Source: a virus
IMG/VR virus record: IMGVR_UViG_3300020438_000019
Location: 1-64,000 of that record
Reading direction: 5' to 3' (one strand)
DNA length: 64,000 nt
The translations under genes and the position numbers were made by a program. The notes under the pieces were generated by a model. That model searched no databases, was not told the DNA's origin, and saw nothing but the letters and a program-made list of their open reading frames with translations. Shown piece after piece: positions 9,001 through 39,015 of this stretch (positions within the stretch are counted from its first letter, which is position 1; each line of letters starts with the position of its first letter).

Positions 9001-12000
9001 ATTTGATCAAAGTGGTCTATTTGACTCTACCACATTGAGTATTAATATCATTCTCAATACAAATGCTACATTCACTGTTGGTGCAATTGTAGAGTTGACT
9101 AATGGTACTGTTAACAAAGTCGATTCTGTAATAGCAACAGGTGAAGTAATTGAATCTACTGATAGGAGAAATTCTGTTAAGCTTAAAGTATTGACTGGTA
9201 CTTTTGCACAACAGGCAGGATACTTCCTTAGAAGTAATAATTTACTAAACACAGTTGGTGCAGAGATCTTATCAACTACAAGCTTAAGTACGGGTTTAAT
9301 ACCATTCATTGTTAGTACGAATATTGCATTAGTTGAAACTGATGGTGATCATGCACTTGGTGTAGGTGATGTTGTATATGTTGAAATAGATCCTGATGAT
9401 TCTATCTCGACAACAACTTACTATGTTCAATTAGGAGCAACGCAAGAGATTGATATCAAGTCACTAACATTATCAACACAGATCGATGATCCTGGATTAG
9501 GAAGAGCTGATTTAGTTAATGGTGGTGCTGATTATGCAGCAAACACATATGAAGATGTAGAACTTATATTTGTTGATCAGAATGCTGCTAGAACTGACTT
9601 AGGGAAAGTCGGCGACTCAAATAATGCAAAAGCAACTATAGTTGTATCAGATATTGATAGTACAGGACTAGGGTCTGTAATAAATGTTATAATCACTGTT
9701 AAAGGATCTAGTTACAAGAAGGGTGATGTCCTTACTGTTGAAGATACATCATTAAACAGATCAGGTGCTTCTACTAATACTCAACGTCTACGTTTAGTAG
9801 TCGATCATATTGGATTCGCTACTGGTGAGACTGTATTGAAATTAGACTCCATTAGTGGATTAGCAAAAAATGATCTTATATTAATAGGTGATGAGATTGT
9901 TAAGATAAACTCTATATCAGAGTCTACCACTTCAGTAACTGTCACAAGGGCACAGAATAATACTAGTGATATAGATCATTTTGATAATGAGGTTGTTACT
10001 CTATATGGATCTAACTATAGATTCACAGTTGGAGATCTTCTTCCTGTTACAGGTACATCATTAGATCCTACAATCATTTCATATGATAATAACAAGTTGA
10101 TTGTAGAACACAATCAAGGATTCTTTGCGACTGGAGATTTTACTCCATATAAGCTTACAGATCAAGCTACACTGTTTGATGAGAGTGAACCTAAAAAATT
10201 GATTGATGTTGATAGTGTTACAGATTATAAGATTGTAACAAAGATATCTTCATCTGTTTCTGGTCCATATGAAATATCACCTAACCTTAAGATACAAGAG
10301 TATTATCAATATAGATTTGATTTGAGTCATTATACAAATGGTGAATCTGAGTTTATTATATCTCCTAGTCAGAATGATAATATTATTGCACCAGAGGTTG
10401 TTAACATTGGTACTCCAGGTACTGCAGGTGCTTACTCGTATATAAAGTTTGGATATGGTCCTAGACTTGGTGATGTTAATCTTGATGGTATATTGACTAA
10501 TAGAGTACCTAGAACTTATCAACGGTATTACTACAAGTCTATTGTGAGAACAATGGTAGATGGAACTAAGCAAATAAGAATTGGTCCATCTACGAGTATT
10601 GTTGATAGTAACAATTATATTGAGCTTATTAATGATCCATTACAAGGACAGAAGTTAATTTCTGATGCACTCACATCTTCTACTGAATCTACTGGTACAG
10701 GAGTTAAAGTATCATTTGTTACAACTGATAGATTTGTCTATGAGTTAACAGAAGATCCTGAGTGGTATGGAACTGGTAATATAAAGTATACTACAAAATC
10801 TAAAGGTGCAACTGGTGCTATTGCTGAAGTTGAGGTATCTAACCTTGGTTCTGGTTATAGAAAAGTTCCTGGTGTATTAGGAGCAGAATTAGATAGCAGT
10901 AGAGCTGCAGATGTTACTGCACAATGGGATTCTGTAGAAAAGAATATTGTTGGCGTTACAATCAATAAAGCTGGATTCAATTACTCTAAACCAAAAGTTG
11001 TTGTAGTTGATGGTGATGGATCCGAAGCAAGGTTCGATGTTTTAAAAACTGCTGATAATAGAATAGCAAATGTTATTGTAACAAACAAAGGAAAGAACTA
11101 CACATACAAACCAGAGCTTAAGGTTGTTGAAGGTGATATTAGAATATTTGCTTTGGGTTCTTCTATAGGAGCTCCAAAGAATGTACAACTTGAATTTAAT
11201 GGATCTGGAATTTGGAATGATACTTCAATATTAAGAAAGCATAAGGCAAGTGATGTTATTATCTTGGACACAACAGATGATTTCTTAAGTGGAGAGAAGG
11301 TAACCTCTGGACTTGCAGAGGGTACTGTTACTAATGGTGGATGGAGAATTGGATCTAATATTCTTAAGGTATCTGTAACTAAAGGTGAGTTTGTTGTAGG
11401 TCAAACTCTTACTGGTAGTGCCAGTAATTCAACTGGCACAATAGTTTCTGTTCAGAGGGCAGAGTTTTCTACTGATCTAAGATCGTATTATGATAATCTT
11501 GGTACTTATACTTCTGATAAAGGTAAAGTTGGTGTAAGAACTCACAAGATAGCAGATAATAAATTCTATCAGGATTATTCTTATGTTATCGAGTCTAAGA
11601 CACAAATAGAAGACTGGAGAGATCTTATTAAGGATTCAGTTCATCCAGCTGGATTTAAGATGTTTGGTGAGCTTAATATAGATGCAAAGGTAGATGCAAA
11701 GGTAAGTAATAATTCTAAGACTACTCAAGTTTCAACATTAAAACTATGGGATGAGAATAGTAACAATGCAAGCATTGCTGATAGTAAAAGATATCATCAA
11801 ACTATTGTAAACTTATCTAAGGATATTAATGTATTGAGAGGTAATGGATCTCTTACAGAGAAAGCAAGTGATACATCTGGACTAATTGCTAAAGAGATTA
11901 AACTTACTCCACACTTTGATGGTACTTTTGATCAGTATGGTAATATCTCTGGTACAAGAGAATTTACTATTGTTGATGCCGAGACTAACAATCCAATAAC

Positions 12001-26173: not shown

Positions 26174-26509
26174 ATGGCTGCTATACCAATAAATTTAATT
26201 TGCGAGAAAGGAACTGACTTTAATGCAACCTTTAATATTCAGAATGAAGCGAATACAACACCGTTAAATTTAACTGGTTATAGTGCTGTAGCGAAATTGA
26301 AAAAGAGTTTTACTTCATCTACATCAACAGACTTTACAGTTGACTTTCCAGACAGATATAACGGACAATTATCAATAGCCCTTCCTAATGCTACATCAAC
26401 TACCTTAGAAGCTCGAAGGTATGTTTATGATATTCTCTTGACTGCACCTTCGGGTACTAAGTCTAGAGTTATTGAAGGAATACTAGAAGTAACACCTGGA
26501 GTTTCCTGA
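26174..26509 (+). CDS. Small beta-sandwich virion protein, 111 aa
   Basis: Pattern 'INLICEKGTDFNATFNIQNEA', 'LNLTGYSAVAKLKKS', 'GQLSIALPNATSTTLEARRYVYD' and 'VIEGILEVTPG' matches a family of short phage beta-sandwich proteins (BppU-N-like) encoded next to fibres and baseplates. Such proteins often link receptor-binding fibres to the tail. Starts 9 bases after the terminator and overlaps the next gene by one base. The exact structural role is inferred from family and context. Confidence 0.65.
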   Translation: MAAIPINLICEKGTDFNATFNIQNEANTTPLNLTGYSAVAKLKKSFTSSTSTDFTVDFPDRYNGQLSIALPNATSTTLEARRYVYDILLTAPSGTKSRVIEGILEVTPGVS

Positions 26510-27213
26510 TGCCTACCTATAATGTATCAGTACAATCTCAAAACTATAATATAGTTTCTGAGGCTAAGAAGAAATTTGCAGTTGGTGTAAATTATGATAT
26601 TCCTGCAAAATATTTGCAGAATAACAATGAGGTTCTTGATGATTTCACTGCTCAGTTCGATGGAACTAAGACAGAGTTTGATCTAACAGAAGGAGGAACT
26701 CCATACTTTCCAACAAATGAAGGACAGTTGATTGTTTCTATCAATGGATTACTTCAACATCCAGGAGTAGATTATACTGTTAGTGGGAGTAAGATAATAT
26801 TCCCAACTCCACCTTCTGCTGGAGATAAACTTTTCACTGTTGCTCAATCAACAACTGCAGATCTTACCAGAACAATTAACTTTGTTTATGGTAGTGGTTC
26901 TGTAGATATGAACACTGGAGAAAAAGGTGAACTACAAATAGATGTAACTGGAAGAATCCAGTCGTGGACACTAACTTCTGATGTGGTTGGTATTCTTATT
27001 ATGGACGTACAGAAATGTACATTCAATGATTTTCCTAACTTCCAGACTATATGTGGTGGTGATAAACCAACCATTAATGGAAACTTGAAAGCATCTGGTG
27101 ATGTTTTAACTAATTGGGATCAAGATTTAATGGCTGGGGATATGCTACGGTTCCGAGTTGATCAGGTAAACCAGATCAGGAGATTTATGTTATCTCTTAA
27201 AGTTTTCCTTTGA
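26509..27213 (+). CDS. Virion structural protein with fibre-type beta domain, 234 aa
   Basis: Residues about 45-115 ('TEFDLTEGG', 'LIVSINGLLQHPGVDYTVSG', 'KIIFPTPPSAGDKLF') form a domain common in phage fibres and also present twice in the gp7-like protein of this genome. The C-terminal half contains 'QSWTLTSDVVGILIMDVQK' and a 'MLRFRVDQVNQIRRFMLSLKV' ending. Coupled to the upstream beta-sandwich gene (TGATG). Probably a fibre or baseplate-associated protein; copy number and location unknown. Confidence 0.7.
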   Translation: MPTYNVSVQSQNYNIVSEAKKKFAVGVNYDIPAKYLQNNNEVLDDFTAQFDGTKTEFDLTEGGTPYFPTNEGQLIVSINGLLQHPGVDYTVSGSKIIFPTPPSAGDKLFTVAQSTTADLTRTINFVYGSGSVDMNTGEKGELQIDVTGRIQSWTLTSDVVGILIMDVQKCTFNDFPNFQTICGGDKPTINGNLKASGDVLTNWDQDLMAGDMLRFRVDQVNQIRRFMLSLKVFL

Positions 27214-27237: not shown

Positions 27238-27245
27238 TATAAATA
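27238..27245 (+). promoter_or_regulatory. Late promoter TATAAATA
   Basis: An exact late octamer sits 42 bases before the ATG at 27288, directly after the hairpin. A strong Shine-Dalgarno-like GGAG lies about 10 bases before the ATG. This suggests independent, probably high, late expression of the 341-aa protein. Confidence 0.8.
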
Positions 27246-27287: not shown

Positions 27288-28313
27288 ATGGCACTGCTAG
27301 TACCTAATATTGGCGAACTTGAGTCACTTCGTTATCTCGTTAACCAGAACAACTTCGTTTTGGATAGAGAGGATAATGCACCAAGGGATCTAATTCTTAA
27401 GCTTTACACTACTGACACCACTCCTGCTGAAGCAGACGTGCCTAGTGTTACAGCATATTATGAACCATACCAAGATGGTAATACAAACAAGTATGGACAA
27501 ACTGTAAATACAGGGTATCCTCTTTGTATTAACAACCGTACAGAAGCAAGATACGATTATACTGATCAGTATGGTATTCTCCTAAATGGTGGGCAGTGGA
27601 AAATTAATCAAGATTCTACTGCTGGTGTTGTAACAACTGCTACTTATCCAGAACAGACTTTCACATTTGATGCTGCTGCTGGTAATGTCTACGGTTATTA
27701 TATTGTAAGAGCAAATAACATGCCTCTTGCGATTCAAGGTGTTGCTGATGCTGCTTCAGGTGCTGCTGCTACTACTCTAACAAAGGGAGATAACACAAAC
27801 GTATGTATTGGAGTTATTGGTAACGACTATGTTACACTTCCTAACGTAGCTTCTGTAATGGATAACATTACAATCGGAATGGCTATTGGTGGTAACGCTG
27901 CTGTTCCTGCTGGTACAGTTATTGGTGGTATTGATCGTGCTCTTCGCCGTATCTACCTTGTAGATTCTGCTAATGTTTCTGTTGCTCTAACTGATAACAT
28001 TCAGGGTGCTACTGACCCAAGTATCACACTTGACTATACTTCAGTAACTGCTATTCAAGCTCACGGTTTACAACCAGGCGATGTTATTTACGTTGCACGT
28101 GGTACTTCAAACACTACAACTACTGAACAGACATATACAATCTTCAGTACACCTTCAACATCAACCTTCACTACAACTCCTGCATTGGATGGAACTGGTA
28201 ACCTAACTCTTTACAGCAGCATAATGTTCGCTGAAAGATTTACAAATGGTCCATACCCTATTCAGAACAACGGTGACCAAATTAAGGTTACATTGAACAT
28301 CAGTCTTGACTGA
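27288..28313 (+). CDS. Virion structural protein, 341 aa
   Basis: Begins 'MALLVPNIGELESLRYLVNQ'. I recall proteins with this kind of start as structural proteins of T4-like cyanophages, but cannot verify this here. It has its own late promoter upstream and terminator downstream, so it is a monocistronic unit, as expected for an abundant virion component. The middle contains an Ala/Gly-rich beta segment (residues ~145-220) and an 'IQAHGLQPGDVIYVARG' stretch, followed by Thr/Ser-rich strands. Tail fibre or baseplate location is likely from its neighbours; no motif gives a function. Confidence 0.72.
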   Translation: MALLVPNIGELESLRYLVNQNNFVLDREDNAPRDLILKLYTTDTTPAEADVPSVTAYYEPYQDGNTNKYGQTVNTGYPLCINNRTEARYDYTDQYGILLNGGQWKINQDSTAGVVTTATYPEQTFTFDAAAGNVYGYYIVRANNMPLAIQGVADAASGAAATTLTKGDNTNVCIGVIGNDYVTLPNVASVMDNITIGMAIGGNAAVPAGTVIGGIDRALRRIYLVDSANVSVALTDNIQGATDPSITLDYTSVTAIQAHGLQPGDVIYVARGTSNTTTTEQTYTIFSTPSTSTFTTTPALDGTGNLTLYSSIMFAERFTNGPYPIQNNGDQIKVTLNISLD

Positions 28314-28341
28314 TCATTTATACTATTAAGTATATCAGGAT

Positions 28342-28378
28342 GGGGGTTGGAGATATTCCACCCCCTTCTTATTGTTTT
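28342..28378 (+). terminator. Rho-independent terminator
   Basis: GGGGG-T-TGG (28342-28350) pairs with CCACCCCC (28358-28365) with a single bulged T; the loop is AGATATT. It is followed by the T-rich TTCTTATTGTTTT. It isolates the 341-aa gene from the giant repeat protein. Confidence 0.8.
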
Positions 28379-28386
28379 CGTGAAGT

Positions 28387-31300
28387 ATGAACGAATACAC
28401 CTACGATTCAAATACGATTTCTCTATATTCTACCGAAAGTTACGGCGATGTTACTGTCCTTAACGTAACGGATGATTATGGATCGATAGGTGATGCTCCG
28501 ACAAATTTAGAAGCAGAAAGTAATTTAAGTCAAGATAGTTTTGGAGAAGTCTCCATATCAGCAGATCATTACCCATTTGGAACAGCAACTATATCTGGTG
28601 GATCACCAAGGGTAAGCTTCAGTCATGGTAATTTCGTTGCTGATGGAACTGCTCACCTCGCCTCTACCGCCTTAGAAGGCATCAGAAAGTTCTGGGTTGG
28701 TACTGGATCCCTATTTGAGATGGGTGGTGGTATGGAACGCAGCAGTGCGTTCTGGGTAGGTTCTGGTGGGATTACTGTATCTGGTACTTGTGAAGTAACA
28801 ACAACATTAGATTGGAACGAATTCTTATTCGTACCATTCACTACAGAAGACTTGGGAGCTGTTGATGCAGTCCCAAGTCTTTTGGACTTTGGGGGTATAC
28901 TAGATCCTAAAGATGGAGGAGAAGAATCTTGGGGATTTGTATACAATACGGATGATGTAAGAGGTGCAACATCATACCATAAGTTTAGTAATGCACCTTG
29001 GGCAGAATTTAATACTTATAGCTTTACTACAGACAGAACAGGTTCAGGTGGTCTATTTGCTGCAAGTGGTCTCTCGGAGACTAAGACCTCTACAGAACTT
29101 GGAGATAAGACAACACTATTCAGTATAACTGGTGGAGAGATATACTCACAGACAAGTCGTGAGGTAATGTCTGGTAATGCTTCATTCGGAAGTGCTGGTG
29201 TTGAGAAGTTTGTACATGAGTTTAATGATGAGTCTGGATTTACACTAGACACAGCAGATTATGGATTAGTTTGGTATGGATTTAGTGAGACTGATGATGA
29301 TGGTAGTATTGCAGAACCTAAGTCAGGTGGTGAATATGATCATGGTGGAATTATATGGAATAACGTAGAGGCAAATACTGGTACATATGAATTGTATGGT
29401 CTCTATGATATCCAAGGAGATGGTACTTACGCTAGGTATTGGGATGGTGAAGGATCTATCCACATCACTGGACAAGACTTTACAACTAATTCACCACATT
29501 GGACTGCATCTGGATCTTTATTCAGTGCTGGTGGTGCTGCTGAGTGTAGAACTGATACTATAGTTGGAAGTGATACAACTCTATTCACTTGGTCTGGTGC
29601 ATACAGTGATCTTAAGTTCCAATATCATTGGACTGGATCTGGTTCTCTACCTGTAACTGGTGGTGTAGCAATACTAAGAACTTATGGATATGATGATACT
29701 GCTACGATTGGATACAGTACTCAGAACTGGGGATCAATAACAGATAGTCCAGTTGATTCAGAGAATTGGGGTCTTGTTACTGAAGGATGGTTATCAGAGA
29801 ACTGGTGGTATGTCTGGCATGAGGGTGTTGCAACCTCAATGGGTGGATTTAAGGTTCGTACAGATCCTAAAGTTATTCATGATTCGACTCCAGAGAATTA
29901 CTTTGATCCAACTAACCCAGGTCTTTCTGCTACCGAAGGTCACAACTTTGATACATATTCATTCACTTGGGGTCATGGGTTCGTACAAGGTGGTAATCTC
30001 TTCGGTATGGGAGGAGCTTCCGAGGCAGTTGGATATCAACCAGTTGAAGATATTGCACTGTTTACTTGGTCTGGTGCATATACTAACCTTCAAGCAACAT
30101 TCAGAGAAATTGGATCTGGTTCTATATCGAGAATTGGTGGTGGAGCTGAGAGAGTCACCTTCGATTATAATGAATCATCTATTGTTCCATACTCATCAGA
30201 TGATAATGGTCTGATAATAGATGCAGCAGTAGTAGTTGATCAAGGTAATGTTGCTGATATACAAGAAGGTGAAGATGATTATGGTTCTGTTCTTTATAGT
30301 TCTGTTGCATATCCTCTAGTTGGATCATATAGCATCACCAATCTACAGTTCTTTGGTGAGACTTATTCCTTCCAGAGAAGATACATTGCAGATCCTGTAT
30401 CCATATTCACTGCTCTTGGTGCTGTAGAGAGTAAGAGTACTACTGAGCTTGGTGAAGATACTTCATTAGGAGATCTTAGTGGTTCTGCTTCCCATTATGT
30501 AATATTCAGGGAGACTGGTTCTGGTGCTATGTCCAGAATTGGTGGTGGAGTTGAGAGAGTTGTATTTGATTATAATGATAGTACAGTTGTACCATACAGT
30601 AGTGAAGATAGTGGTCTTGTAATAGATGCTGCTACTACTGATGTTGATCTTGGTGATGTTACAGAAGTTCAGTATGGTGGTGAAGAGAATTATGGTTTAG
30701 TTACTTACACTTCTACTGCTAATTCTGCACAGGGAACATTCACCGTCAGTCTCACAAGAGAATTGTGGACTCAGGAAGATATTGATAAGCTTAATCCAGA
30801 ATATACTACTAAACCATATGGTACATTCCCACAGGTAGGAGATGAGAAGACACAAGAAGAAGCAGGTCATCTTCGATTCATTCCTGTCTGGGGTCAAACT
30901 GGTTCTGGATCTCTATTCTCAGTTGGTGGTGCTTCTGAATCTGTAACGGTAGAACCAAATACAACTGGTATATTCCAGATGGTTGGTGGGGATTACTATA
31001 TCGGTAGTATGGTTGCAACCTTTGCCTTCCGTGAGGTTGGTTCTGGTTCTATGTCCAGAGTCGGTGGAGCTGCTGAGTCAGTAACATTCGATTATAACGA
31101 GTCTTCTATTGTTACCTTTACTACTGAGGATGTAGGATTAGTAACAGATGCTACAAATTATCAAACTGATCATTTTGATGATGGTAGTGTAGCACTTCCA
31201 CAAGAAGCAGAGAATGATTATGGTTCAGTAATCTATGGTGAGACAGTATATCCTCTCACAGGATCTATTGATATATTCACTGCACCTGAATGGATTGGTA

Positions 31301-34300
31301 ACACATATAGATTTGTATGGAGAGCACCAGCTGGTAGTGGTGGAATACCAACTGTAGGTGGTGCTGCGGAATGTGTATCTACAACAGAACTTGGAGATTC
31401 TACAACACTATTCGATATCTACACTTCACCTGCAGGTATCGGTAACACCTATAGCTTCTGCTGGAATTACACTGGTTATGCATCAGTACCAACTATCGGT
31501 GGTGCAGCTGAGTCTATAACATATGATTACAATGAGAATTCTATTGTTGTATTCACTACTGATGATAGTGGTCTTATAACAGATTCTGCTACTGTCTTTG
31601 ACGATAGTACAGTTATAACTGCACCTCAGTCTGGTGGTGAATATGATTATGGTTGGGTATTCTGGACTAGCACAGTTCTTCCAGTTTCAGGAACACTCCA
31701 ATCTTCTGGTACTTCACCAAGTGCTACTGTATTCAGAGATCCTACACAGGGTGGATCACTATTCAGTGCTAGTGGAGCTAGTGAATGTGTTAGCACGACA
31801 GAACTTGGTGATGCTACAACACTATTTGATATCTACACTGCTCCAGCATACATTGGTAACACATATAGCTTCGTGTGGAATGCACCTCCAGGTACAGGTG
31901 GATTATTCAGTCTTAATGGAGTTGCAGAATCTATATCATGGGCATATAACGAATCATCAATTATTCCATATGCAACAGTAGATAATGGATTGGTAGTTGA
32001 TTCTGTAACTGTAGTTGATGACTATGGTTCAGTAATAGAATCTCAATATGGTGGAGAATATGATCAGGGACAGATTATATTCACATCTACTGCTACTCCA
32101 TTCGGATCACTCAACTTAAGTCTAACAAGAGAACTGTGGACTCAGGCAGAGATTGATGAGTTACCTCCTACTTACGAGACAAAACCTTACGGTACATTCC
32201 CAGTTGCAGGTCAAGAGAAGACTCAAGAAGAATCTGGTGATGTTAAGTACAAACCTATCTGGGGTCAGATTGGTGAAGGTTCTCTATATTCTGTAGGTGG
32301 TGCTGCTGAATGTATTGCTTATCAACCAACTGAGGATACAGCACTATTTGATATCTTCACTGCACCTCAATACATTGGTAACACTTACAGATATGCATGG
32401 AGTTATGTTGGTTACTATAACTTACCTACTATTGGTGGTGCTGCTGAGTCAGTAACATTCGATTACAATGAATCTTCTATCAACGTATTCTCTGTTGATG
32501 ATGAAGGTAACATTGTTGATAACGCAACAGTATTTGGTGAGTATGGCGACCTTAACATCCAACAAGGTGAAGATGATTACGGAACAGTAATTTGGACTTC
32601 TACAACATATCCTCTAACAGGAACACTCCAGACATCAGGTATTGGTTCAGAGTATGTTGTATTCAGAGATCCTACCACTGGTGGTTCTCTATTCAGTGCT
32701 GGTGGATCTGTCGAGAGTAAGACCTCTACTGAGTTTGGTGAAGATACATCACTTGGAGATCTTAGTGGTACTGGTATTCTATCCAAAACTAAGGATTGGG
32801 TTGGATCTGGATCACTATTTACTGCTCTTGGTGCTGCTGAGTCTGCAACATTCGATTACAACGAATCTTCCATCGTTACACACACAAGTGATGACTATGG
32901 ATTAATAGTAGATGCTTCTACTACCAATGTTGATCAAGGTAATGTTGCTGATATACAAGAGGGTGAAGATGATTACGGTTCAGTAATTTACACTGAAACT
33001 GTCTATCCTACAACTGGATTAGTAACTCTTACTACTGCACCTCAGTTTATTAATAATACTTACAGCTTCTGTTGGAACTTTGTATCAGATGCTGGATCTC
33101 TATTCAGTGCTGGTGGTGCTGCTGAGTCTGCAACGGTTGATTGGGAATCAACAGGTCTCTTTGATGTCTTTACTGCATCTCAGTTTATTGGTAACACATA
33201 TAGCTTCGTATGGAATGCACCTCCAGGTACAGGTGGACTATTCTCTATTGGTGGTGCTGCTGAGTCTATTACATGGAACTATGCTCCTGGTCCAGTACTT
33301 CCATTCAGTACTACTGATTGGGGTGCAGTAGCTGATGCAACACATCCAACTAATGATGTAATCAATTACGGTGATCTTGGATTGTTCGATGAGGACACAG
33401 AAGATTACGGATTCGTAATTTACACATCTGAGACTGTTTCCAACTCTGGAACATATACCTTAAGTTTAACAAGAGCACTGTGGACTCAAGAAGAAATTGA
33501 TGCACTTAACCCAGAGTATCTAACTGAGCCATATGGTACATTCCCACAGGTAGGGGATGAGAAGACTCAAGAAGAATCTGGTGATATTAAATACGAACCA
33601 TCTTACGCACATATTGGTGGCGGTACATTATTCACTGCTGGTGGTGCTGCTGAGGCTGCTGTCTATCAACCTACTGAGGATACTGTACTATTCACTGCAT
33701 TCACAGCACCTCAATTTATTGGTAACACCTATAGGTTTATTTGGAATGCACCTCCAGGCACAGGTGGATTGTTCAGTGTTGGTGGATGTGTAGAATCTAG
33801 ATCTTATGTTTATAACGAATCTGGTGTTGTTACGTATGGTACTGTTGATTATGGATCAGTAACAGATCTAACACATCCAACCAATGATGCAATCAATTAT
33901 GGTGAGGTTGCACTACCTCAATCTGATGGTGAAGTAGACTACGGTTCCGTTCTCTACACCTCTACCACATATCCAACAACAGGTACTTACGTTGTTGATG
34001 GTGCTGTTACCCAGTCATTCAGTAAGGGTCTATACACTGGTGGTGGTTCTCTATTCGCTACAAGTGGTGCTGGTGAATGTGTATCTACTACTGAGTTTGG
34101 TGAGGATACATCACTTGGAGATCTTGGTGGTTCTGGTTCACAGTCACGTACTGTTGTTGAAATTGGATCTGGATCAATATTCAGAGCTGGTGGTGCTGCT
34201 GAGTGTAGGACATATGATTATGATCAGAGTGCTATCGTTGTATTCACATCAACTGATCATGGTCTAGTAGTAGACAGTGTAGTTACATCAGATGATCAGG

Positions 34301-37300
34301 GTAGTGTTGATACTATTCAGTCTGGTGGTGAATATGATTATGGAACTGTACTTTACAGTGCTAATGCAATACCAGTAACAGGTACTTACGTTGTTGATGG
34401 TGCTGTATCTACTGCGTTTGTCTTTGGTAACTTTACTGGTTCTGGATCACTATTCACTGCTGGTGGTTCTGCTGAATCTTCAACATACTCACCTGAGAAT
34501 GATACCTGTCTATATGATATCTTTACTGCTCCGCAGTTTATTGGTAACACATACAGCTTCGTATGGAATGCACCTCCAGGCACAGGTGGATTGTTTAGTG
34601 TTGGTGGATGTGTTGAAGTTAGAACATACGCTTACAATGAATCTGCTAGTCAGGCATTTAGCACTGAGGATAACGGTCTCATATCTGATGCTGTTACAAC
34701 AACTGATGATCATGGTGACTTTGGATATGTTGGTGACGACACCGAGGATCATGGTCAGGTATGGTTGGGTGCTACCAATGGTGCTGCTGCAAATGGATTC
34801 CTTACCTTCGGTGGTGAAGTATTCGAGATCTACAAACCAGCATATGCACATACTGGTGAAGGTTCATTATTTACTACTCTTGGTGCTGCAGAATCCTTTA
34901 CCACGACAGAGTTTGGAGAGGACACATCACTTGGTGATCTAAGTGGTACTCATTCTATAGTAAGAACATTCAGTGAGGTTGGAACTGGTTCTATCTTTAC
35001 TGTTGTTGGTGGTGCTGAGTCTAGAACCTACAACTATGATATCAACCTCACCGCCATAACATTCCAGGATGATAATGGTTCAATAACAGATAGTGCTACT
35101 ACGATTGATGATCAAGGTACGGTTCATCCACCTCAAGACGGTGGCGAATACGATTATGGATCTATTTGGATTGGTCTTGGAAGTGAACTATGGAGATCTA
35201 GTGATACTGTATCTGCTTCTGGATTTGTTCATCTTGGTCTAATAAGTGATACCGTTGGTATTGCTAGAACATTTGGACACACTGCTTCTGGATCACTATT
35301 TGCTACTGGTGGTGCAGCAGAGGTTGTTGTATACGATTACGAAGATACAACTCTATATGATATCTTCACTGCACCTCAATACATTGGTAACACCTACAGC
35401 TTTAGTTGGCAGTACAGTGGATCTGGTAACATCAATTCACTTAATGGATGTGCAGAATCTAGAACATGGAATTATAGCGATACCTTACCATCTGCACTCG
35501 TTGTTGATGATGAAGGTAATGTCGTTGATGCTACAACAGTATTTGCTGATTACGGTGACCTTGGTGTTAGATGGGGTGGTGAAGAAGACTACGGTTCCAA
35601 CAACACACTTGCACATCCTGGTCTCGCTGCATCTGGTACTTACACAATTAGTGGTGTTGCAAATACTCCATTCGTCTGGAGAGAAGGATGTGAAGGTGGT
35701 ACGTATCTAGTTTCTGGTGAAGGAATAGAGAGACCTACAACAGCTCTAACTGGTGAAGGTACTGCATACATTTACACTGCACCTCAGTTTGTTGGTAACA
35801 CATATGCATTCACTTGGGGTCATGGATTTGTACAGTCTGGATCTCTATTCAGTGCTGGTGGTGCAGCTGAGTCTACTACAACCAACCCACCAGAGGATAC
35901 ATTACTCTACACATTTGCTGGTACTAGAGTATCAGAACTTCGTACATATGCTGAGTCTGGATCTGGTTCCATCACTCTATCTGGTTCAGGTTCCGAACTT
36001 TACACTGGTGCATTTGAAGGATCTGGTACTGTTACTCTATCTGGTACAGGTGCAGAGAGCAAGTCGTTTGCTAACTTTGACGGATCTGGTTCACTATTCA
36101 CTGCTGGTGGAGCAGTTGAAATGGTTGCTGTTCTTGAAGGTGGAATCGGTCTTTGGACTTACAGTGGTTCTGGTATCGAGAAGCATACAGAGAGATGGAT
36201 CGGTTCTGGATCTGCAACTGTATCTGGTGCTGGTCTTGAGGTATATTCCAGAGGTACGGTTACTGGATCTGGTACGGTTACATTATCTGGTACTAAGGCA
36301 GAAAGCTTTACTCCAGCACCTGAGATTGGAACTGGTTCTATCTTTACTATTGGTGGTGCTTCTGAGTCTGCGACTGTTGATTGGGAATCTACAGGTCTCT
36401 TCAATGTTATTGGTTCCACTCATTATAACTTCTCACTCAGACATATTGGTTCTGGTTCACTATTCACTTCCAGTGGTGCTGCTGAATCCACAACTACCAA
36501 TCCTCCAGAAAATACTGCACTATTCGCAGTTGGTGGTACTAAGGCAGAAAGCTTTACTCCTGCAACTCATGTTGGATCTGGATCTATCACTCTATCTGGT
36601 GCTGGTTCTGAGAATTACACTGGTGCATGTACTGGTTCTGGTACTGCAACTATCACTGGTGAAGCAGATCTCATCTACCGTGTTAGATACTTTGGTTCTG
36701 GTTCACTATTCACTGCTGGTGGTGCTGCTGAATCTGTTACAACCAATCCACCTGATAGTACTTCACTCCATCAAATTAGTGGTACTAGAGTTGAGAAAGC
36801 AGTATTCAGAGAAATCGGATCTGGATCTATCAGTTTCTCTGGTACTTCTCCACTTACCCGTTACATTCCACATATCACTGGTAGTGGTACTTACACAGTT
36901 GGTGGTGCATGTACATTCAAGGTTCGTTACATCCTTGGTGGTTCTGGTAACATCTCCACATTTGGTGGTTCTGCCGAGGCAGTTGGTACTAATCCTCCAG
37001 AGGATATTGCACTATTCGTTTGGTCTGGTATTGGCGAGAGTCAATGGTCACCTTCTTGGGTTGGTCAAGGTTCTTACTTCACATCTGGAGAAATCCCAGA
37101 ACCACTTATCACGAAACACTGGACTGCATCTGGTTCACTGTTCTCAGTTGGTGGTGCTGCAGAAAGCTTCTCTGCAAATATCGATGGTATTGGTCTATAC
37201 GATATCAGTGGTGCATACTCAGATCTCAAGGCAACATACAGAGAAATTGGATCTGGATCTCTTTGGACAGCAAGTGGAGCATCAGAGTCTGTTGGAACCA

Positions 37301-38754
37301 ATCCTCCAGAAAGCACAGTACTATACACATATATTGGTGCTGGTATCGAGAAGCACACCGAGAGATGGATTGGTTCTGGATCTATCAGTCTTTCAGGTGC
37401 TGGAGTTGCATTCTATACACCACACATTACTGGTTCTGGATTTGCTACTCTATCTGGATCAGCACTCGAAAGTCAGACAGACGATTGGGTTGGATCTGGA
37501 TCACTATTTACTGCTGGTGGTTCTGCAGAATCTACAACTACAAATCCTCCAGAGGATACAGTTCTCTATACTTGGACAGGTGCTGGTACAGAGAAGCATA
37601 CAGAGAACTGGGTTGGTTCTGGATCTACAACATTCTCTGGTGCAGTCTCCGATGTTCAAAGAACATTTGCAGAGACAGGATCTGGATCTCTATTTACAGC
37701 TCTCGGTGCAGCAGAATCTATCTCCACAAGCGAGGTCAGCACTGGAATCTTCACAATCAATGGAGACGGTGCAGATTCAAGAGCAAGGATATTTGTTGGA
37801 TCTGGTTCTATTACCATTTCTGGTACAGCAGCAGAAGCAACAGTTGTTCCTCTTTCTGGATCTGGTACTGCTACCTTCAGTGGAGAAGCATTTATCAGAT
37901 GGATCCCAAGTTGGATTGGTTCTGGTACAGCAACAATATATGGTCAAGTCACCGATGTTCAGATTACAAAACATTGGACTGGATCTGGATCCCTATTCAC
38001 AGCAGGTGGTTCCGCAGAATCGATTACCACGAATCCTCCAGAGGATACGTTACTCTACACAGTTGCAGGTAATCTTGCTGAGAGCTTTACTCGTGCTCCA
38101 TACATCGGATCTGGTACTGCTACCTTCAGTGGTGAATCTAAAAACATATTCACACCTAACAATATTGGTTCTGGTTCAATATATGTTGCTGGTACTCTGG
38201 ATGAAAGACAGACAGATCATTATCATGGATCTGGTACTGCTACAGTTAGTGGTGATTCTGATGACGCACGTGCAAGAGCATTTGAAGGATCTGGATCTCT
38301 ATTCACTGCATCTGGAGCTGCTGAATCTACAACTGTTGATTACGAAGATACAACTCTATATGACATCTTCGGTCATGGTGCAGAAGCCTTTGTACGTAAG
38401 GGATATGTCGGATCTGGTTCCTTCAGTGGTATTGGTGGAACAGTTACCGATGTTAAGCTTACACATGCTGATCCAGCAGGTGATGTTGACTACGTTGTAT
38501 CTGGTGAAGTTACAGATATCAAACGTACCTTCGGATACGTTGCACCTTACGGAACACTATTTGCCTTCGGTGGAGGAGTTGAATCTGCCACTGTTGACTA
38601 TGAAAATATTCTTCTTACAACAATTGGTGGTAGTGCAGATGATAAATTCGTCAGATCTGCATACATTGGAGAGGGAACAATTACTCTCAGTGGAGAGTCC
38701 CTCAATGAGCTCAGAACATTCGAGCCACCATTCATGTTTGCAACGATAATATAA
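28387..38754 (+). CDS. Giant repeat adhesin / tail-fibre-like protein (3455 aa)
   Basis: The largest gene in the window. Roughly residues 1-2410 are built from alternating modules. An acidic 50-60-residue unit (consensus-like 'YNESSIV...DxGLVxDxx...DxGxV...GGEYDYGxVxYTS') occurs about 16 times, interspersed with 'GSLFxxGGAAES' beta units and 'FIGNTYSFVWNAPPGTGG' units. Residues ~2410-3430 switch to short 20-35-residue Gly-Ser beta units ('GSGSITLSGAG'). There is no signal peptide or membrane segment. Such repeats suggest a long beta-structured surface fibre or decoration; acidic turns could bind calcium (inference). Its placement between baseplate and fibre genes supports host attachment. No known T4 homologue. 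Confidence 0.75.
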   Translation: MNEYTYDSNTISLYSTESYGDVTVLNVTDDYGSIGDAPTNLEAESNLSQDSFGEVSISADHYPFGTATISGGSPRVSFSHGNFVADGTAHLASTALEGIRKFWVGTGSLFEMGGGMERSSAFWVGSGGITVSGTCEVTTTLDWNEFLFVPFTTEDLGAVDAVPSLLDFGGILDPKDGGEESWGFVYNTDDVRGATSYHKFSNAPWAEFNTYSFTTDRTGSGGLFAASGLSETKTSTELGDKTTLFSITGGEIYSQTSREVMSGNASFGSAGVEKFVHEFNDESGFTLDTADYGLVWYGFSETDDDGSIAEPKSGGEYDHGGIIWNNVEANTGTYELYGLYDIQGDGTYARYWDGEGSIHITGQDFTTNSPHWTASGSLFSAGGAAECRTDTIVGSDTTLFTWSGAYSDLKFQYHWTGSGSLPVTGGVAILRTYGYDDTATIGYSTQNWGSITDSPVDSENWGLVTEGWLSENWWYVWHEGVATSMGGFKVRTDPKVIHDSTPENYFDPTNPGLSATEGHNFDTYSFTWGHGFVQGGNLFGMGGASEAVGYQPVEDIALFTWSGAYTNLQATFREIGSGSISRIGGGAERVTFDYNESSIVPYSSDDNGLIIDAAVVVDQGNVADIQEGEDDYGSVLYSSVAYPLVGSYSITNLQFFGETYSFQRRYIADPVSIFTALGAVESKSTTELGEDTSLGDLSGSASHYVIFRETGSGAMSRIGGGVERVVFDYNDSTVVPYSSEDSGLVIDAATTDVDLGDVTEVQYGGEENYGLVTYTSTANSAQGTFTVSLTRELWTQEDIDKLNPEYTTKPYGTFPQVGDEKTQEEAGHLRFIPVWGQTGSGSLFSVGGASESVTVEPNTTGIFQMVGGDYYIGSMVATFAFREVGSGSMSRVGGAAESVTFDYNESSIVTFTTEDVGLVTDATNYQTDHFDDGSVALPQEAENDYGSVIYGETVYPLTGSIDIFTAPEWIGNTYRFVWRAPAGSGGIPTVGGAAECVSTTELGDSTTLFDIYTSPAGIGNTYSFCWNYTGYASVPTIGGAAESITYDYNENSIVVFTTDDSGLITDSATVFDDSTVITAPQSGGEYDYGWVFWTSTVLPVSGTLQSSGTSPSATVFRDPTQGGSLFSASGASECVSTTELGDATTLFDIYTAPAYIGNTYSFVWNAPPGTGGLFSLNGVAESISWAYNESSIIPYATVDNGLVVDSVTVVDDYGSVIESQYGGEYDQGQIIFTSTATPFGSLNLSLTRELWTQAEIDELPPTYETKPYGTFPVAGQEKTQEESGDVKYKPIWGQIGEGSLYSVGGAAECIAYQPTEDTALFDIFTAPQYIGNTYRYAWSYVGYYNLPTIGGAAESVTFDYNESSINVFSVDDEGNIVDNATVFGEYGDLNIQQGEDDYGTVIWTSTTYPLTGTLQTSGIGSEYVVFRDPTTGGSLFSAGGSVESKTSTEFGEDTSLGDLSGTGILSKTKDWVGSGSLFTALGAAESATFDYNESSIVTHTSDDYGLIVDASTTNVDQGNVADIQEGEDDYGSVIYTETVYPTTGLVTLTTAPQFINNTYSFCWNFVSDAGSLFSAGGAAESATVDWESTGLFDVFTASQFIGNTYSFVWNAPPGTGGLFSIGGAAESITWNYAPGPVLPFSTTDWGAVADATHPTNDVINYGDLGLFDEDTEDYGFVIYTSETVSNSGTYTLSLTRALWTQEEIDALNPEYLTEPYGTFPQVGDEKTQEESGDIKYEPSYAHIGGGTLFTAGGAAEAAVYQPTEDTVLFTAFTAPQFIGNTYRFIWNAPPGTGGLFSVGGCVESRSYVYNESGVVTYGTVDYGSVTDLTHPTNDAINYGEVALPQSDGEVDYGSVLYTSTTYPTTGTYVVDGAVTQSFSKGLYTGGGSLFATSGAGECVSTTEFGEDTSLGDLGGSGSQSRTVVEIGSGSIFRAGGAAECRTYDYDQSAIVVFTSTDHGLVVDSVVTSDDQGSVDTIQSGGEYDYGTVLYSANAIPVTGTYVVDGAVSTAFVFGNFTGSGSLFTAGGSAESSTYSPENDTCLYDIFTAPQFIGNTYSFVWNAPPGTGGLFSVGGCVEVRTYAYNESASQAFSTEDNGLISDAVTTTDDHGDFGYVGDDTEDHGQVWLGATNGAAANGFLTFGGEVFEIYKPAYAHTGEGSLFTTLGAAESFTTTEFGEDTSLGDLSGTHSIVRTFSEVGTGSIFTVVGGAESRTYNYDINLTAITFQDDNGSITDSATTIDDQGTVHPPQDGGEYDYGSIWIGLGSELWRSSDTVSASGFVHLGLISDTVGIARTFGHTASGSLFATGGAAEVVVYDYEDTTLYDIFTAPQYIGNTYSFSWQYSGSGNINSLNGCAESRTWNYSDTLPSALVVDDEGNVVDATTVFADYGDLGVRWGGEEDYGSNNTLAHPGLAASGTYTISGVANTPFVWREGCEGGTYLVSGEGIERPTTALTGEGTAYIYTAPQFVGNTYAFTWGHGFVQSGSLFSAGGAAESTTTNPPEDTLLYTFAGTRVSELRTYAESGSGSITLSGSGSELYTGAFEGSGTVTLSGTGAESKSFANFDGSGSLFTAGGAVEMVAVLEGGIGLWTYSGSGIEKHTERWIGSGSATVSGAGLEVYSRGTVTGSGTVTLSGTKAESFTPAPEIGTGSIFTIGGASESATVDWESTGLFNVIGSTHYNFSLRHIGSGSLFTSSGAAESTTTNPPENTALFAVGGTKAESFTPATHVGSGSITLSGAGSENYTGACTGSGTATITGEADLIYRVRYFGSGSLFTAGGAAESVTTNPPDSTSLHQISGTRVEKAVFREIGSGSISFSGTSPLTRYIPHITGSGTYTVGGACTFKVRYILGGSGNISTFGGSAEAVGTNPPEDIALFVWSGIGESQWSPSWVGQGSYFTSGEIPEPLITKHWTASGSLFSVGGAAESFSANIDGIGLYDISGAYSDLKATYREIGSGSLWTASGASESVGTNPPESTVLYTYIGAGIEKHTERWIGSGSISLSGAGVAFYTPHITGSGFATLSGSALESQTDDWVGSGSLFTAGGSAESTTTNPPEDTVLYTWTGAGTEKHTENWVGSGSTTFSGAVSDVQRTFAETGSGSLFTALGAAESISTSEVSTGIFTINGDGADSRARIFVGSGSITISGTAAEATVVPLSGSGTATFSGEAFIRWIPSWIGSGTATIYGQVTDVQITKHWTGSGSLFTAGGSAESITTNPPEDTLLYTVAGNLAESFTRAPYIGSGTATFSGESKNIFTPNNIGSGSIYVAGTLDERQTDHYHGSGTATVSGDSDDARARAFEGSGSLFTASGAAESTTVDYEDTTLYDIFGHGAEAFVRKGYVGSGSFSGIGGTVTDVKLTHADPAGDVDYVVSGEVTDIKRTFGYVAPYGTLFAFGGGVESATVDYENILLTTIGGSADDKFVRSAYIGEGTITLSGESLNELRTFEPPFMFATII
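30130..35620 (+). repeat. Acidic 'YNESS...GGEYDYG' protein-coding repeats
   Basis: At least 13 well-formed coding copies, with several degenerate copies further upstream from 28387. Each contains an aromatic-Asn-Glu-Ser start, one or more Asp-x-Gly turns and an Asp-Tyr-Gly ending. Copies are diverged, so the array is old or under selection for variation. Three copies of a longer block starting with 'LTRELWTQ' (coding starts near 30751, 32122 and 33466) give a higher-order period of about 1.35 kb. Confidence 0.8.
35860..38750 (+). repeat. Short Gly-Ser beta-repeat region
   Basis: Dozens of 20-35-codon units with a GSGS/GSGT core, frequently ending Ala-Glu-Ser or Ala-Glu-Lys, and DNA dominated by GGATCTGG/GGTTCTGG. 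Repeats within this part are more similar to one another than those upstream. The extreme codon repetition leaves long stretches of a second forward frame free of stops. Confidence 0.8.
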
Positions 38755-38805: not shown

Positions 38806-39015
38806 ATGACTAAGCAGGTACAGTTGAGACGGGGTACTACAGTACAACAGTCAACATTTACTGGAGCTCTTGGAGAATTGACCGTAGATACTACGAAAAT
38901 GACCCTTGTTCTCCATGACGGAGCAACTCAAGGAGGCATAGAATTTGCTCGAAGAGACGATGTTACTGCAGAAGTAACAACAAGTATGGGCATGATGGCC
39001 GCCCTTGGTTGGTAA
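38806..39015 (+). CDS. Stand-alone Mtd-N-like fibre domain protein, 69 aa
   Basis: The sequence 'QVQLRRGTTVQQSTFTGALG', 'ELTVDTTKMTLVLHDGAT' and 'GGIEFAR' is the hallmark of the N-terminal domain of phage major-tropism-determinant-like and many tail-fibre proteins (hyperlinked beta/trimer base). Normally it caps a much longer fibre, but here the protein ends about 25 residues later. It may be a free trimeric adaptor between the 3455-aa and 2039-aa proteins, or the head of a fibre that has lost its shaft. It has its own late promoter. The family call is firm, the role is inference. Confidence 0.75.
   Translation: MTKQVQLRRGTTVQQSTFTGALGELTVDTTKMTLVLHDGATQGGIEFARRDDVTAEVTTSMGMMAALGW

Follow-up and report, generated by a model that had tools for sequence, protein, structure and literature searches.

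In phage S-CREM2, gp84 adjoins the 4971-aa long tail fibre gp85, both being virion proteins by mass spectrometry (PMC10665884). The same succession, an LtfC-like gene of shared PHROGs and then a giant gene, is found in the window analysed here, a 64,000-nt stretch of DNA that is a portion of an 80,893-base (80.9 kb) IMG/VR viral record. The L-shaped tail fibre system of T5 likewise has an LtfC-like partner gene beside the fibre, as at 26174-26509 of the window, and the T4 long tail fibre (gp34-gp37) is alike in the role that we propose for the giant protein, that of a long fibre at the baseplate. Its sequence, however, resembles none of these: S-CREM2 gp85 carries none of its motifs (no profile hit), it is not homologous to T5 pb1 (it has no Pfam domain and matches PHROG 11522 alone), and it shows no sequence similarity to gp34-gp37. 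The absence of a T4 counterpart, proposed in a sequence-only reading of this DNA, is supported by the lack of any T4-fibre PHROG, Pfam or PDB match, and a search of solved structures by sequence returned nothing meaningful from the PDB.

The window can be read as a T4-like cyanomyovirus tail module, and its source is a T4-like cyanophage (Kyanoviridae) infecting marine cyanobacteria; the portal is 70% identical to portals of Synechococcus phages. The giant gene is flanked by baseplate wedge genes (gp6, gp8-like) on one side and by neck, terminase, sheath and portal genes on the other, and past the DUF4815 gene the order runs fibre cassette, gp14-like, terminase, sheath, portal. The features of this region are as follows:

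4221, gp6 (baseplate wedge)
6026, 3179-aa structural protein
15616, gp8-like protein (baseplate wedge)
17460, DUF4815 protein
26174-26509 (+), LtfC-like / BppU_N-like small tail-fibre attachment protein, 111 aa, cassette gene 1 (PHROG 3304, PHROG 1084)
26509-27213 (+), virion structural / tail adaptor protein, 234 aa (PHROG 10330 'virion structural protein', 1.3e-78)
27238-27245 (+), TATAAATA, T4 late-promoter consensus match 42 nt 5' of the partner gene (weak evidence)
27288-28313 (+), obligate partner gene, 341 aa, PHROG 10467 (giant family next in 60/60 loci)
28387-38754 (+), probable giant modular fibre protein, PHROG 11522 (ORF, profile match, homologues)

The giant gene is one uninterrupted frame with an ATG start, positioned exactly where the sequence-only reading had placed it, and encodes 3455 aa (362 kDa, pI 4.05). 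Its product matches PHROG 11522 in 15 stretches (E 1e-114). This is a large unnamed family whose complete proteins span 737-3690 aa, with constant ends and a variable middle, and the window protein carries both the conserved N-terminal cap and a C-terminal end of the R-T-[YF]-x-x-I-I type. Counterparts occupy the same place in cultured S-CAM1 (2130 aa; tblastn 2e-36), S-CAM3 (2558 aa), S-SSM7/S-SSM6a (1529 aa as annotated in S-SSM7), Sf-FS3 (1505 aa) and S-SCSM2R (1369 aa, annotated 'TolB'), as well as in many IMG/VR contigs. Those of S-CAM1, S-CAM3, S-SSM7 and S-SCSM2R match PHROG 11522 too; the S-SSM7 and S-CAM proteins are annotated 'hypothetical'. The isolate homologues share with the window gene its cassette, both caps, a Gly-Ser motif and a depletion of out-of-frame stop codons, but the window protein is longer, has 17 acidic DYG domains against 1-3 in the isolates and, unlike them, shows stop depletion only in its C-terminal third. 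Among prokaryote genomes the sole relative found, matching the N-terminal cap, lies in a Rhodobacteraceae MAG (NZVE01000039.1), probably as a phage contig binned with it. The open literature searched held no virion proteome of a phage with a member of this family.

Some members contain an extra inserted domain (GGFNIGPHVRFG...NGGE.PD.GEDL..E; L001 9913-17589, L104 9989-20437, L177 11170-20265), and an insertion in the S-SCSM2R protein gave rise to its TolB annotation. Judging from these insertions, the PHROG 11522 scaffold appears to take up unrelated domains.

The giant gene closes a four-gene cassette. The product of the first gene matches PHROG 3304 'L-shaped tail fiber protein assembly' (8.8e-25) and PHROG 1084 (6.4e-29), with a Pfam LtfC match below the cut-off (19.4 vs 27); it is 24% identical to S-CREM2 gp84 (BLASTP 2e-9), with which it shares its PHROGs. 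In S-SSM7 the PHROG 10330 gene carries the annotation 'structural protein', in S-SCSM2R 'tail adaptor protein'. PHROG 10467 is named 'tail fiber rope protein' in S-SCSM2R, a name for which literature on 'tail fiber rope' and on S-SCSM2R yielded no published support. On its own, this partner gene retrieved at least 599 viral sequence stretches, and the cassette is present in only about six cultured phage species. Among contigs recruited by the partner gene alone, a giant-family member followed PHROG 10467 in all 60 that could be tested, and the LtfC-like and PHROG 10330 genes lay 5' of it in 67 of 67 loci. The window has the family order (LtfC-like, PHROG 10330, PHROG 10467, giant), which is identical in S-CAM1, S-CAM3, S-SSM7, Sf-FS3 and S-SCSM2R. 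As for the candidate late promoter, the window contains 7 matches to the consensus where 6 are expected, and position is the sole argument for the one at 27238-27245. Between the partner and giant genes, at 28339-28375, GGGGGTTGGAGATATTCCACCCCC is followed by a T-rich stretch; this element, read by eye and absent from the list produced by the scan, looks like an intrinsic terminator or attenuator.

It is mainly the cassette context, with its LtfC-like gene and kinship to S-CREM2 gp84, that leads us to call the giant protein a fibre. We consider it probable that this protein is a tail fibre, either long or accessory, of a T4-like cyanophage, with an extended and modular build that is probably rich in beta structure. 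Context and homology thus support, short of proof, the surface fibre that had been suggested from the letters. Such a fibre would be part of the virion and anchored at one end, with the three products encoded 5' of it (LtfC-like protein, adaptor and 341-aa partner) as its likely attachment parts at the baseplate, and would be a main candidate for host recognition by many uncultured cyanophages. A decoration of the head or neck, a surface appendage (whisker-like or of another kind), or a scaffold on the tail that carries other domains is unlikely, though it retains some weight: the downstream neighbour in S-CAM1 is annotated 'putative hoc', the S-SCSM2R member has its TolB-annotated insertion, and conservation of both termini counts against a fibre, in which the tip that binds the receptor usually varies most. 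These alternatives fit poorly with the presence of an LtfC-like/BppU_N-like attachment gene and a tail adaptor in a fixed cassette, and with a locus in the baseplate region.

The sequence-only reading had divided the protein into about 2400 residues built of some 16 acidic Asn-Glu-Ser/DYG modules and a last ~1000 residues of Gly-Ser units. A profile search found 17 copies of the acidic DYG domain, every one before residue 2422; what ceases after residue ~2421 is this inserted domain. The Gly-Ser motif (GSGSLFTxGGAAES), in contrast, extends well beyond the last ~1000 residues; its 37 profile hits are distributed over the whole protein. The two regimes are therefore one Gly-Ser scaffold, with and without an inserted acidic domain. 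In a segmentation based on this motif, short (41-48 aa) units alternate with long (89-138 aa) ones from residue ~572 to ~2440, after which short units alone continue with a 20/41/82-aa period. Autocorrelation detected repeats above chance in both parts, at lags of 448-454 aa in the N-terminal part (z 7-8) and of 41, 82 and 20 aa in the C-terminal part (z up to 12.5). The resulting architecture is as follows:

28387-28791 (+), conserved N-terminal cap, residues 1-135, Y.YD...DYG.I...PFG...WVGSGTLFEMGGG.ER (alignment; N-termini of 57 homologues)
30100-35649 (+), body 1, residues 572-2421, alternating short and long modules, the long ones with the acidic NES/DYG domain
30889-32259 (+), super-unit 1, residues 835-1291, three short/long pairs, the last with the LTRELWTQ extension
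32260-33603 (+), super-unit 2, residues 1292-1739, 49% identical to super-unit 1
33604-34842 (+), super-unit 3, residues 1740-2152, the last pair without the LTRELWTQ extension
35821-38532 (+), body 2, residues 2479-3382, Gly-Ser motif alone with a basic period of 20.5 aa (41/82; autocorrelation, profile hits)
38533-38751 (+), conserved C-terminal cap ending ...RTFEPPFMFATII (family: RTY..II; alignment; 55/57 complete homologues)

In structural terms, the constant caps would bracket a variable shaft whose basic element may be a ~20-residue Gly-Ser strand-turn-strand motif; over the first 2400 residues, pairs of this motif would bear the acidic DYG domain, which would project from the shaft and could touch the host surface. 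The motif pattern and a low-confidence model suggest a shaft of beta strands with Gly turns between them. AlphaFold2 monomer predictions reached a pLDDT of 25.6 for residues 1610-2200 (26 sequences) and 36.4 for residues 2900-3455 (13 sequences), and the all-beta pattern appears only in the latter, low-confidence model. Obligate trimers are a common cause of failure in monomer prediction.

Three LTRELWTQ blocks, the third reading LTRALWTQ, lie at 30751, 32122 and 33466 with spacings of 1371 and 1344, just as first reported. Each 1.35-kb unit consists of three pairs of one short (41-48 aa) and one long (89-138 aa) module, and it is the LTRELWTQ extension on every third long module that produces the spacing. 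A higher-order unit exists, but it is not a recent segmental duplication: identity between aligned super-units is 45-50%, and their other two long modules do not come in a constant order, that at residue 881 pairing best with 1469 and that at 1026 with 1338. With 49% identity between super-units 1 and 2 and a changed module order, the array is old and partly rearranged. The longest exact DNA repeat in the gene is 36 bp.

Module number nevertheless differs among relatives. Four contigs, drawn from different samples and ~80-90% identical over most of the protein, are module-poor: L078 and L032 lack 133 aa, L032 lacks a further 272 aa (two modules), and L076 and L025 lack 135 and ~143 aa. A more distant relative (L094/L034) is also without the 587-721 module. 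The modules concerned are:

30145-30549 (+), module of residues 587-721, missing in L078/L023, L032, L076/L026, L025 and L094/L034
31258-31686 (+), module of residues ~958-1100, missing in L076/L026 and L025

As the longest exact repeats measure 36-48 bp, assembly collapse is an unlikely source of these differences. At the junctions, the remaining module is chimeric: its start resembles the first of two window modules and its end the second, the pattern expected from in-register unequal recombination. Recombination of this kind, at equivalent points of two modules, would remove or add a whole ~136-aa module in frame. In L077, near nt 9696-9718 of the gene, a repeat unit has been replaced by a variant like another copy (20- vs 21-aa unit), which suggests that sequence has been exchanged between copies.

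The many repeats, and the module losses that separate relatives, might suggest an adhesin subject to phase variation, in which slippage, or recombination between tandem repeats that are nearly identical, would change the length rapidly. We regard this as quite improbable: the gene has no near-identical repeats (one weak tandem array, in addition to the 36-bp limit on exact repeats), relatives at 88-91% identity keep 3454-3456 aa, and gene length is identical within species in 6 S-CAM1 records and 3 S-CAM3 isolates that differ by 5-33 substitutions. Length variation by recombination, as originally proposed, therefore stands in a slow, modular and evolutionary form and not as rapid switching. 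The comparisons support a fibre whose length would evolve slowly, by whole ~136-aa modules in register, and such stepwise changes offer a direct test of how fibre length evolves. On the whole, then, the sequence-only reading had its coordinates right and its substance largely so, with several details corrected here.

The omega of the giant gene against close relatives is 0.31-0.50, with neighbours mostly at 0.04-0.25 and only the downstream 2039-aa gene comparable (0.32-0.52). With dN/dS below 1 it is under purifying selection, yet no more than one gene of the region has a similarly high value, which is what an exposed fibre would be expected to show.

The 3' third of the gene has a further property, in that its alternative forward frames are almost free of stop codons:

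35750-38746 (+), +1 frame open for 999 codons, to 8 nt before the gene end
36993-38069 (+), +2 frame open for 359 codons, all three forward frames being open here

When synonymous codons of the C-terminal region were shuffled, the longest open runs never exceeded 423 (+1) and 100 (+2) codons; when codons for equal dipeptides were re-drawn coherently, the 99th percentile of the longest +1 run was 465, and the highest value over 1000 trials 915. Within the open +1 stretch, Leu, Val and Ile codons end in TA before a purine in 1 of 96 cases and before a pyrimidine in 33 of 67, while other fourfold codons end in A before a purine in 108 of 344. Similarly, T-ending codons of the S-CAM1 gene number 3/205 before AA, AG or GA vs 237/441 before other codons starting with A or G. 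The avoidance is stop-specific, and simple dinucleotide avoidance is ruled out, the depletion being limited to stop-forming contexts. It is also specific to strand and frame. Among 101 ORFs of at least 250 aa in 18 stretches of related phages, only PHROG 11522 members showed it; over the last 500 codons, alternative-frame stops fall to 0-30% of expectation in 33 of 56 family members, and the depletion is absent from the group ending NPFQIPRTYxxII. Open alternative frames were seen also in L002, L004, L104, L137, L184 and others.

At codon sites that differ among orthologues, which are not fully independent, xTA occurs before a purine in 11 of 195 cases and before a pyrimidine in 86 of 196 (p 1e-19). 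Fourfold divergence and the nature of +1 changes in the open stretch equal those of a control region. Taken together, these comparisons indicate that out-of-frame stops are avoided and that the +1 protein sequence is not conserved. Among 60 aligned pairs of relatives we found no compensated frameshifts; one apparent -1/-2 pair proved to be an in-frame exchange between repeat copies. Frame-swapped repeats were likewise rejected, as the +1 and +2 translations match no frame-0 family member.

A described parallel is provided by the PE_PGRS genes, which are Gly-rich and repetitive, contain few hidden stops and have been proposed to tolerate frameshifts, their stop depletion being attributed in that work largely to GC content, as a passive consequence (PMC13328622). 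In the giant gene, by contrast, at 42-48% GC, the depletion is still seen when judged by a synonymous-codon null, and it extends to zero stops across ~1000 codons. Out-of-frame stops have been shown by experiment to limit indel variation (PMC13006647). The strict, frame-specific lack of out-of-frame stops runs contrary to the prediction of the ambush hypothesis. A literature search for phage fibres open in three frames returned nothing, and as far as we found, no such lack of stops has been described for a phage fibre gene.

Tolerance of frameshifts is the explanation that most readily suggests itself for the open frames, frameshifting itself being only hypothetical. We suggest, tentatively, that the 3' part may be selected for zero stops in all forward frames while its out-of-frame sequence goes unconserved, which would let the gene survive frame changes and generate diversity. 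Such changes could come from mutational indels, out-of-register module joins or frequent ribosomal frameshifting, and would result in altered full-length fibre tips, not truncated ones. The giant gene would then be a frame-tolerant, diversity-generating host-recognition gene. For the specialist the surprise lies in the frame-open 3' region, a modular giant fibre being of a known kind.

The open frames could instead be a by-product of repetition, a stop-lacking repeat unit having been copied many times. The open stretch of the window does coincide with its Gly-Ser repeat region, and the dipeptide-coherent null produced its 915-codon run once in the 1000 trials. We nonetheless judge this account improbable, given that orthologue-variable sites still avoid stops, that the frames stay open in members of the S-SSM7 type having no more than 4-6 repeat hits (L184: 790 and 711 codons), and that neither T4 gp34-gp37 nor the 4971-aa S-CREM2 fibre shows any out-of-frame stop depletion. 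It is very improbable that the open +1 stretch (35750-38746) represents a genuine overlapping gene, as its 999 stop-free codons and their retention in relatives might imply: neither dS in frame 0 nor divergence at fourfold sites shows a consistent drop in this stretch, the control region has +1 changes that are just as conservative, the product would be 26% Leu and 14% Val with no Pfam or PHROG match, the +2 frame is partly open too, and openness stops with the end of the frame-0 gene.

Downstream of the giant gene, a 69-aa ORF at 38806-39015 is 94-100% identical in relatives and matches only the first 50 residues of the 152-aa tail-protein family PHROG 9648; in S-CAM1 and S-SSM7 a 152-aa protein occupies its position. 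A copy of TATAAATA begins 35 nt 5' of this ORF.
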